Below, piece by piece: positions 43,760 to 47,085 of a stretch of DNA of 47,085 nt. The DNA comes from an uncultured beta proteobacterium (GTDB taxonomy: Bacteria; Pseudomonadota; Gammaproteobacteria; Burkholderiales; Burkholderiaceae_B): contig CAITPF010000444.1 of NCBI GenBank assembly GCA_903894155.1, forward strand, positions 1 to 47,085, written 5' to 3'. The position numbers were made by a program, and so were the translations under genes. The number at the start of each line of letters is the position of its first letter. Position 1 is the first letter of the stretch. The notes beneath the pieces were generated by a model. The model was not told the origin of the DNA. It saw only the letters and a program-made list of their open reading frames with translations, and made no database searches.

Positions 43760-46603
43760 ATGACCCAAACGACTGGCAAGCAAAACAAGGCAGGTCAAAC
43801 CATCTCCGGCAACAAGGCAACCGATGCCACCAAGCGCAAGCCATCCATGGCTGCCGCTAAACCCACCCCAAAAGCATCGGTCAAAGTGTCATCCCCTCGC
43901 GGGGCCACGCGCGCCTTACCTGTGTCGAAGCCACCTGCCAAGCCTGCTGCGAAACCCACGGCCAAGCCTGCGTCCAAGGCGCCGGCTAAAGCCGCGGCAA
44001 AGCCCGCCGCAAAAGTCGCGGTGAAGGCCAAGGCTGCCCCGGCCGTCGCCGCCAAGTCAGCGAAACCCTCTTCAATCCACCCACCCAAACCTTCCACCAA
44101 GGGAGCCAGTGTGTCAGGCGCAAAATCGAATGGCCGCAGCGCCTCGCCGGCAACCAAGCTCCCAGTTGGTGGCAAGGGTGTTACCCAATCTGCAGCGAAG
44201 CCAGCCCACAAGGTCAGCGCCAAGCCCGCCGTCAAGTCAGTCAAGGAAGCAATGAAGCCGGTATCACAGGCAAGTAAACCCGCCAAGCCCGCAGCCACAC
44301 CTGCGGTCAAGGTAGCAGTCAAATCCTCAGCCAAACCCGCAGCAGCCAAGCCGGTTGCCAAGCCCATCGCCGCGAAGGCCGCGCCTAAGCCTGCCGCCAA
44401 GCCCGCAGCCAAGCCTGCTGTCAAGCCGGCCGTGAAGCCGGCAGAACAACCTGTCGCCTCCAAGCCGGCTGTGAAGCCGGCCGCCAAGGCCGCACCCGCG
44501 AAAGAATCCAAGGATGCCGCAAAGGCGGTAAAAAAAGCGGTGGCTTCCCAGCCCGGCGAAGCTAAGCCGGCCAAGCCAGAGCCCAAGCCCCGTCCGTTGG
44601 TCGGCACAGGCCGTCGCCCCGGGCGTCCCTCGAAGAACCCCAATGGCAATGACTCCGATTTCGACGATGCCGCAGGCGTCGAGGGCGAAGGCGAAGTCTT
44701 GCCCGACCTCAAGCCGCCCAAGCGCGGCAAGCGTGGAAAAGGCGATGCCAAGGACCTGATCGCACGTGGCCCCGTCTCGCCCGAAGAATACGAAGCGCGC
44801 CGCAACCGCCTGAAGCTCCTGATCAAGCTGGGCAAGGATCGCGGTTATCTCACCTACGGCGAGATCAACGACCACCTGCCCGATGATCTCGTCGACGCAG
44901 AGGCGATTGACGGCATCATCAGCACCTTCGGCGATATGGGCATTGCGGTCTACGACCAGGCGCCCGACGCAGAAACCTTGCTTCTGGGCGAAAACGCGCC
45001 GGTTGCCGCAAGCGACGATGATGTCGAGGATGAAGCGGAAGCCGCGCTGACGACGGTGGATTCCGATTTCGGTCGCACGACCGATCCCGTGCGGATGTAC
45101 ATGCGGGAAATGGGCACGGTTGAACTCCTCACGCGCGAAGGCGAAATCGAGATCGCCAAGCGCATCGAGGATGGCCTGAAGCACATGGTGATGGCGATTT
45201 CGGCTTGCCCGACGACCATCAACGAAATTCTCAATCACGTGCAGCGTGTTCGCGATGCCCAGGCCCAGATCGACGAGGTTGTCGACGGGTTGGTCGATCC
45301 GGACGACGGCGCGGAATACGCCGGTGCGGGCGTTGCCGACGATACCGACGAAGATGGTCCGGCGGGCGGGATGAGCAGCAAGCAGCTCGAGGATCTGCGC
45401 GTCAAGGGCCTGGCCAAGTTTGACATCGTCGCTGCACACTTTGCGAAAATGCGTGCGGCCTACGAGAACGACGGTTATCGCTCCGGCCCCTATATGTCGG
45501 CTCAGGAGACGATTCAGAACGAACTCATGGGCATCCGCTTCACGGCCAAGATGGTCGAGCGGCTTGCCGATACACTGCGCCGTCAGGTCGAGGAAGTTCG
45601 CCAGCTCGAGCGCGCCGTGCTACACACGTGCGTCGATCGCGCCGGGATGGCGCGCAGCCACTTTATCAAGGTGTTCCCCGGCAACGAAACCAACCTCGAC
45701 TGGGTCATTGCGGAAGTCGAGGGTAATCACGCTTACTCGATCACGCTGCGCCGTCATATTCCGGCCGTGCAGGAGCTTCAGCAAAAGCTGATCGACCTGC
45801 AATCGCGCGTCGTGCTGCCGCTGAAGGATCTGAAGGAAGTCAACAAGCGCATGGCCACCGGCGAAGCGAAGGCCCGCAAAGCCAAGCGCGAGATGACCGA
45901 AGCCAACCTGCGCCTGGTGATCTCGATTGCGAAGAAGTACACCAACCGCGGCCTACAGTTCCTCGACCTCATCCAGGAAGGCAACATTGGCCTGATGAAG
46001 GCGGTGGACAAGTTCGAATACCGTCGCGGCTACAAGTTCTCGACCTATGCCACGTGGTGGATCCGCCAGGCGATCACCCGGTCCATCGCGGATCAGGCAC
46101 GCACGATCCGGATCCCGGTCCACATGATCGAAACCATCAACAAGATGAATCGCATCAGCCGTCAGATCCTGCAGGAAACCGGCGCCGAGCCGGATCCCGC
46201 GACGCTGGCGTCCAAGATGGACATGCCCGAGGACAAGATCCGCAAGATCCTGAAGATCGCGAAAGAGCCGATTTCGATGGAAACCCCCATCGGCGACGAC
46301 GACGATTCGCACCTTGGCGATTTCATCGAAGATACGCATACGCTGGCGCCCGCGGACGCTGCGCTGCACAGCTCCATGCACAACGTCGTCAAAGAGGTGC
46401 TCGATTCCCTGACCCCGCGCGAAGCCAAAGTGCTGCGCATGCGGTTCGGCATCGAAATGAGTACGGATCAGACGCTCGAGGAAGTCGGCAAACAGTTTGA
46501 CGTCACGCGTGAGCGCATTCGTCAGATCGAGGCGAAGGCATTGCGCAAACTGCGCCACCCGAGCCGTGCCGATAAGCTCAAGAGCTTCCTGGAAGGGCAG
46601 TAA
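43760..46603 (+). CDS. rpoD: Primary sigma factor RpoD with a long Lys/Ala/Pro-rich extension
   Basis: Housekeeping sigma factor, 947 residues against about 613 in E. coli. Residues 1-280 are almost wholly KPAA-type repeats. They end in GRRPGRPSK (residues 284-292), which resembles an AT-hook, and an acidic stretch ([15 protein letters not shown]). Region 1.1 begins near residue 345 ([17 protein letters not shown]). Region 1.2 has [11 protein letters not shown]; region 2.3-2.4 has [17 protein letters not shown]; region 3 precedes region 4.2 ([21 protein letters not shown]). The core is intact, so it should be functional; the extension is added ahead of it. Last gene of the rpsU operon. Confidence 0.96.
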
Positions 46604-46654: not shown

Positions 46655-46694
46655 CAAGCGTCCGCTCATTGCAATATAGTTTGCGAACGACTTT

Positions 46695-46739
46695 GCCCCT
46701 CTAGCTCATGCTTGGTTAGAGCAGCGGACTCATAATCCA
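46695..46739 (+). pseudogene. Truncated tRNA-Ile(CAU) 5' half (intron-less duplicate)
   Basis: This copy reads as tRNA from the acceptor 5' strand (46695-46701) through D arm (GCTC/GAGC stem) to the anticodon loop CTCATAA, then AATCC as in an uninterrupted tRNA. After 46739 the expected 27-43 and 28-42 base pairs fail, and no T arm or acceptor 3' strand follows. It belongs to a 43-bp exact direct repeat (46693-46735 and 46892-46934). It cannot form a mature tRNA, but might be transcribed. Confidence 0.75.
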
Positions 46740-46891
46740 GCAGCTCAAATCTTCAATGTGCTGCAGAGCAAGTAAATTAGCGGTTCTACGTGTTTTTTGA
46801 TGTGCAAAAAGTGCTTACACACCGCTTGCACACTTTGTTGAGATATTGTTTGGTTTTTGCAATTGCAGAAATTAAGTAATATTTAGTTTTA
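46736..46891. other. AT-rich spacer between the two tRNA halves
   Basis: A 156-bp stretch that is clearly richer in A and T than the rest of the window. It has a perfect seven-base inverted repeat (46801-46807 with 46826-46832, 18-base centre) and a short hairpin near its left edge (CAGCA with TGCTG). No gene, no insertion-sequence end and none of the conserved group I intron blocks were recognised in it. Confidence 0.6.
46857..46885 (+). promoter_or_regulatory. Possible promoter of the intron-containing tRNA-Ile
   Basis: TTGCAA (46857-46862) and TATTTA (46880-46885) are spaced by 17 bp, with transcription predicted within a few bases of the tRNA 5' end at 46894. Both hexamers are only moderate matches. 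Confidence 0.4.
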
Positions 46892-46893
46892 TT

Positions 46894-46932
46894 GCCCCTC
46901 TAGCTCATGCTTGGTTAGAGCAGCGGACTCAT
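46894..46932 (+). tRNA. tRNA-Ile(CAU) 5' exon, interrupted by a group I intron
   Basis: Thirty-nine bases that fit a tRNA 5' half exactly: acceptor strand 46894-46900, TA, four-base D stem with an eleven-base loop containing GG, base 26 A, anticodon stem GCGGA, then CT and anticodon CAT at 46930-46932. The CAU anticodon together with the GCCCC acceptor start and GGACTCAT loop fits tRNA-Ile2, whose C34 becomes lysidine, rather than elongator tRNA-Met. The 3' exon must lie beyond the window, after the intron. Position 36 is the last exon base, so the intron sits between positions 36 and 37. Confidence 0.85.
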
Positions 46933-47085
46933 AAATTTTTGTGCACCATGTTCGGAAACGGCGTGTGTGAATGGTGTCAAATTCGGTGAAACCTAAGTGC
47001 AGCAATGCATAGGGCAATGCCGAGCCAAGCCAAGGTGCGAAAGCATCTTGGAAGGTGTAGAGACTTGACGGCACCCACCTAAAGC
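46933..47085 (+). ncRNA. Group I self-splicing intron (Azoarcus tRNA-Ile type, probably IC3), cut by the window end
   Basis: The sequence closely resembles, from memory, the compact Azoarcus tRNA-Ile group I intron. The internal guide GTG (46941-46943) pairs with the exon end CAT, giving the U-G pair at the splice site (P1). A P2-like stem is capped by GAAA (46955-46958), TGCA-GCAA-TGCA forms a stem (46998-47009), and a nine-base-pair stem is capped by GAAA (47030-47051). Conserved core blocks include GTGTCAAATTCGG (46974-46986), GAAACCTAAG (46988-46997), GCCGAGCCAAG (47019-47029) and the GAC..GACGGCACCCACC run (47062-47079). About 50 further bases are expected beyond the window. Confidence 0.9.

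Follow-up and report, generated by a model that had tools for sequence, protein, structure and literature searches.

Why should the 5' half of a tRNA-Ile(CAU) gene stand twice behind rpoD, once cut short in its anticodon loop and once continued into an intron? The window we analysed is an entire contig of 47,085 bp, which stops inside that intron, and all of its features discussed here lie on the plus strand. The sigma-70 gene rpoD (43760–46603, from the list of open reading frames; aligned parts 94–97% identical in loci L010 and L028) is found upstream of tRNA-Ile(CAU) in genomes of the same genus. In the window it is followed by a truncated native tRNA-Ile(CAU) 5' half (46695–46735), by the presumed left arm of an island (46736–46893), by a second 5' half that forms the 5' exon of a replacement tRNA-Ile(CAU) and ends in the anticodon CAT (46894–46932), and by the intron (46933–47085), the 3' part of which lies beyond the contig end. 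A sequence search for the 3' end of the intron and for a tRNA-Ile 3' half found neither elsewhere in the source assembly.

The first-pass annotation had described a group I intron at this place, and several kinds of evidence uphold that description. Read from the sequence, the anticodon CAT (46930–46932) stands opposite a guide GTG (46941–46943), with U opposite G at its end, as a P1 pairing. The Rfam group I search that had been proposed as a check did return a match to RF00028 at 46848–47085 (E = 1.2e-5, with the 3' end cut off), but its 33.2 bits do not reach the gathering score of 50 bits, and a scan of the whole window at the gathering score gave no Rfam match. Two full-length relatives, L003 (64.5 bits) and L056 (51.4 bits), exceed the RF00028 gathering score. 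By BLAST, positions 5–193 of a 193-nt query are 81% identical to an intron-bearing tRNA in the genome of another family (E = 3.5e-45), and other introns are 84% identical to the part of the intron visible in the window. In a consensus fold of 27 introns, that of the window included, 25 of the 47 pairs show at least one compensatory double change, in agreement with the earlier remark that P2- and P6-like stems vary in sequence and keep their pairing, while P3 and P7 are nearly invariant. Past the contig end would lie the 3' strand of P7, P9, the terminal G and the 3' exon, all of which relatives possess; a terminal G precedes AATC in 88 of 89 distinct introns of relatives. Judged from these comparisons, it is confirmed that the tRNA 5' half in the window enters a predicted Azoarcus-type group I intron, with its GTG guide, directly after CAT, as had been annotated. 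Introns of relatives measure 198–255 nt, which leaves no room for a homing endonuclease gene.

The intron resembles that of the Azoarcus sp. BH72 pre-tRNA-Ile(CAU) in its insertion right after CAT, its GTG guide, its core blocks and its length of about 200 nt; we take the Azoarcus intron to belong to subgroup IC3. The CAU tRNA is provisionally assigned to the isoleucine class, as in the first-pass annotation and after E. coli tRNA-Ile2. ARAGORN, which does not separate the Ile and Met classes of CAU tRNA, labels the tRNA of the relatives Met(cat) and made no tRNA call in the window at all, an intron-bearing tRNA being overlooked here, which matters for annotation. The Azoarcus case also differs from ours: the accessible part of PMC3984707 describes an intron in a tRNA gene and mentions no island, integrase or replacement copy.

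The claim that the intron interrupts tRNA-Ile(CAU) stands as far as a tRNA with a CAU anticodon is concerned, but what it interrupts is not simply the host's gene: the intron sits in a second copy, downstream of a native gene, cut at the anticodon loop, whose remaining 5' half the first-pass annotation missed. The two halves are identical over 41 nt and lie 199 bp apart. The upstream one ends in CTCATAA (46729–46735), which makes up the anticodon loop and the putative recombination core, and diverges soon after; positions 46694–46738 match an intact gene of the same genus at 100%. The same-genus genomes G014 and G022 each have one intact intronless tRNA-Ile(CAU) downstream of rpoD (aligned parts 94.5 and 96.9% identical). 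Following the cut, the 158-nt arm has a GC content of 35%, compared with 59–62% in segments upstream, and carries a paired direct repeat, GCTTACACAC / GCTTGCACAC (46812–46833), presumably integrase arm-binding sites, that agrees with the arm repeat of an island in genome G150 in all but one of its 22 letters. The pattern for this repeat was drawn up with the window and a Polynucleobacter sequence in view, so that its expected value of 0.01 does not represent a blind test. A consensus scan of the arm detected no promoter or terminator. A tRNA cut at a defined core, beside 35% GC DNA with an arm repeat, is what would be seen at a left attachment site (attL), and on this reading of the sequence the host's own tRNA-Ile(CAU) gene is cut at its 7-nt anticodon loop.

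We propose, and as a whole hold to be likely, that the intron rides on an island that replaces the tRNA. Such an island would recombine into the loop CTCATAA of the host tRNA-Ile(CAU) behind rpoD, parting the two halves of the gene, and would bring along, some 200 bp in from its left end, a tRNA-Ile(CAU) gene that is complete. In this branch the supplied gene would be interrupted directly behind the anticodon by a self-splicing group I intron of the Azoarcus type. The host would rely on the island copy for its AUA-reading tRNA, and on the ribozyme to produce it, and the intron, too short for a homing endonuclease gene, would spread as a passenger of the island. In the window, this account is supported by the identical halves with the first cut at CTCATAA, by the single intact gene of the two same-genus genomes, and by the arm repeat common with the G150 island together with the drop in GC content; it is weakened by the lack of a promoter-like site in the arm and by the fact that the island, which would continue downstream of 47085, its integrase and its right end all lie off this contig. 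The displaced native 3' half was not found in the source assembly either, which also counts against it.

A survey of loci with this intron puts the window in context. With a strict pattern, 102 stretches were found among named genomes; a viral collection added one locus, and 15 of 399 genomes drawn evenly from the order had a match, so that the earlier statement that such introns are known in a few bacteria set their number too low. In 11 of the 15, the match extends over 155 or more of the 216 query positions; a truncated half is present in five of these 11, one of them the window. Among all 103 loci, 52 have a truncated half upstream, with an arm in the same position as in the window; the distance between the two tRNA halves is 162–347 nt (median 208, window included), and rpoD lies upstream within the fetched stretch in 43 of the 52. 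Twelve loci stand behind the end of another element with CTCATAA (checked by eye), 26 are in native position without a half (13 directly behind rpoD and 13 behind hrcA), and the remaining 13 have ambiguous surroundings or too little sequence; L168 and L173, with less than 60 nt upstream, were classed as short, and L174 and L182 were placed behind hrcA by eye. The 52 loci with a truncated half and the 12 behind another element's end support the island account. Several of the native halves are decaying. At three of 53 loci (L087, L103 and L157) the native half is of another D-arm type than the second copy, as expected if that copy came from another host; three further loci, which had brought the count to 6 of 53, proved on reading to have decayed halves of the same type.

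Some loci have unusual structures. On contig C4 of G161 (L053/L054, about 101900–102700), three tRNA-Ile 5' halves are stacked about 200 bp apart, the last of them complete and intron-bearing, and 13 kb from the stack lies an intron-bearing copy whose intron is interrupted by an apparent insertion sequence. The viral-collection contig (L188, 418–633, minus strand) has an intron-bearing copy without a truncated half upstream. On a same-genus contig (G026:C205, L050, about 1243, minus strand), a tRNA-Ile 5' half is followed by a related intron. At its 3' end this intron no longer resembles the family, and it continues into the apparent 3' part of another tRNA.

To see both ends of such islands we turned to relatives. 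When 34 genomes were searched for the intronless tRNA 3' half, 33 places came up, 30 of which were read: the half was displaced, without a 5' half, in 23, belonged to an intact gene in four, and was otherwise placed in three. We also read 12 regions, most of them chosen for having the intron and the displaced half on one contig, and could map both ends of nine islands, with the native 5' half on the left, the native 3' half on the right and CTCATAA at both. Each of the nine contains a complete intron-bearing tRNA near its left end. Their sizes are 32.6 kb (G150), 28.8 kb (G521), 26.6 kb (G520), 24.0 kb (G508), 21.0 kb (G517), 14.3 kb (G513), 10.1 kb (G523), 8.6 kb (G510) and 2.4 kb (G527). Genome G047 has the same island arrangement without an intron, in 8.2 kb. 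In G531 the native gene is intact and is followed by several element ends or remnants, which weakens the island account, and in G519 (Ca. Methylopumilus) the half and the intron copy are followed by chromosomal-looking genes only. We considered whether the G519 locus is the tRNA-Met island described in the accessible part of PMC10872708, and found this unsupported: about 35 kb read downstream contained no integrase-family match and no glmS start motif. The region of the G513 island (L252, about 2909 and 16399) has an extra intron 3' end, followed by its 3' exon, and also a third stretch resembling a 3' exon; these may be left over from earlier insertions. At L045 (13348–16530), within the G150 island, are genes for a cytosine methylase, an Eco47II-type nuclease and an AspBHI-like nuclease; the G150 island, at least, carries restriction-modification cargo.

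What might integrate these islands? In G150, a 450-aa protein starts about 1.1 kb past the tRNA, beside the cytosine methylase, the Eco47II-type nuclease and the second nuclease. It had no Pfam match even at an E-value of 10, an NCBIfam search gave a weak recombinase match (E = 5.6e-4) far below the cut-off, and a search of PDB sequences returned no recombinase. With no usable sequence-family match to go by, we predicted its fold (mean pLDDT 80, pTM 0.56). Among solved structures the model came closest to XerH (E = 9.7e-8) and to lambda integrase (E = 3.8e-7), but TM-scores over the query reached no more than 0.37–0.41, and R235, K285, R373 and Y406, which we take to be the catalytic residues, are common to 14 aligned members of the family. 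By its predicted fold, the island protein family is a divergent tyrosine integrase. Of the 399 genomes sampled from the order, 29 have a match to it, many of these matches being short or weak, and in 8 of the 30 integrase loci read a tRNA-Ile(CAU), a tRNA-Lys(TTT) or a CTT-anticodon half lies close by. The family may target several anticodon loops.

The distribution of the integrase cuts both ways. Members are present in five of the nine mapped islands, and within 3 kb in 6 of 21 half-bearing loci with enough downstream sequence versus 0 of 8 native rpoD loci, figures that, like the nine two-ended islands themselves and the predicted likeness to XerH and lambda integrase, support the island account. 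Members are missing from the other four islands, and from within 3 kb in 15 of the 21 half-bearing loci, which weakens it. The source genome has an integrase fragment, 67% identical over 73 residues, which lends some support; its position at the edge of another contig, behind a stop codon, counts against the account. At L059, L065 and L066, relatives of the integrase adjoin tRNA-Lys(TTT) genes or a CTT-anticodon half.

As for the movement of the intron, a tree of 89 introns (the chimeric intron of L120 was excluded from it and included in alignment A1) shows element-borne and native copies intermixed, and its starred branches require the native label to change at least 10 times, in support of the island account. 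At the same time, the native and element labels are more clustered on this tree than shuffled labels, which weakens it. We found no intact tRNA-Ile(CAU) in the source assembly, where the two next matches are tRNA-Lys, making it plausible that the cell would depend on splicing for this tRNA. AUA is a rare codon, with two instances among the 2434 codons of four open reading frames, so that the demand for an AUA-reading tRNA would be small, and the dependence itself is one that we infer.

We know of no clear route by which short tRNA group I introns without a homing endonuclease gene pass between bacteria. Islands that swap the host's intronless tRNA-Ile for an intron-bearing gene would provide a vehicle that can be read from sequence, and would make the host ribozyme-dependent in one step; where the island decays, as in G519, the intron gene would remain. 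Our literature search, with most subscription papers outside its reach, found no paper linking bacterial tRNA islands to group I introns. Like the anticodon-centred, tRNA-targeting islands found by Islander, as described in the accessible part of PMC4383910, the islands mapped here in relatives have a core in the anticodon loop and a displaced tRNA fragment and, in five of nine, a tyrosine integrase. In the Islander cases the fragment restores the cut gene, whereas our islands leave the two native halves orphaned and supply an entire gene, here with an intron.

The intron could also be more than a passenger, in that, by interrupting the attachment site, it would protect the one functional gene from being cut by the island's integrase or by competing islands. 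The accessible part of PMC3293823 proposes something similar for the archaeon Caldiarchaeum, in which a mobile element would have carried an intron into a tRNA gene and would profit by blocking later invaders; that intron is archaeal, at other positions, and gained by recombination with attP, whereas ours is a bacterial intron, presumably self-splicing, in a complete extra gene. Consistent with a shield, the full core CTCATAA is kept in 3 of 54 element-borne versus 10 of 24 native introns (Fisher p = 2.4e-4, kinship ignored), and element copies also include, at 3 of 18 loci, introns of a second type placed before the anticodon. The window's own intron, however, keeps CTCATAA. Since the strict pattern, with its leading A, misses split copies that have the common element end, we used a P7 pattern to look for such copies in 36 genomes chosen for introns or islands; it gave 45 intron places, 44 after removal of a chance match (L302). 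Five of the 44 have no tRNA 5' half, and in two of these, L290 and L298, the intron is joined to the canonical right end of an element. At least two intron-bearing copies have thus been split, and an absolute shield is ruled out. The accessible part of PMC8371274, in which the anticodon loop is the overlap region, likewise reports integration into intron-containing tRNA genes, archaeal ones serving as integration sites. We favour the passenger reading over a shield, which we regard as improbable; in particular, it seems doubtful that islands have more than once armed their replacement tRNA with a self-splicing intron, of two types flanking the anticodon, as a partial shield. Were this true, own and rival integrases would cut the only working gene less often, to the benefit of element and host. 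The evidence at present is mixed, and the idea of tRNA introns as a guard against integration becomes testable in bacteria.

Quite unlikely, in our judgement, is a tandem duplication of an intron-bearing host gene followed by a deletion that removed the 3' part of the upstream copy, all without a mobile element. The identity of the two halves in the window would fit such an event, as would the absence in G519 of an island between the intron copy and the chromosomal genes, but the native 3' half is displaced by 2.4–32.6 kb in nine islands, the break falls on CTCATAA in every half listed, the halves can differ in D-arm type (the 3 of 53 loci above), and the arm repeat and the integrase are present. 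That the window has an ordinary native tRNA-Ile with an Azoarcus-type intron and an irrelevant half upstream is hardly credible: intron-bearing native genes are real (the 26 loci behind rpoD or hrcA without a half), but over 41 nt the upstream half does not differ at all from the second copy, and it lies at the site of the single gene in same-genus genomes.

Setting these alternatives beside the favoured reading, of an intron carried by a tRNA-replacing island, we also note the second type of intron, which interrupts tRNA-Ile(CAU) between U33 and C34 (GGACT^...G^CATAATCC; L067, 2391–2721, minus strand, and L269–L286). It occurs in 18 of the 399 sampled genomes, mostly without a half upstream, and three of its copies are element-borne. 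No Rfam match was obtained for it at the gathering score; sub-gathering matches to the group I model (34.0 bits for L067 and 25.1 bits, partial, for L273) suggest that it is group I-like. The intron of L120 (189–405, plus strand) appears to be a chimera of the two types, with an Azoarcus-type 5' part after CAT and a 3' part like that of the before-anticodon type, ending before CATAATCC.
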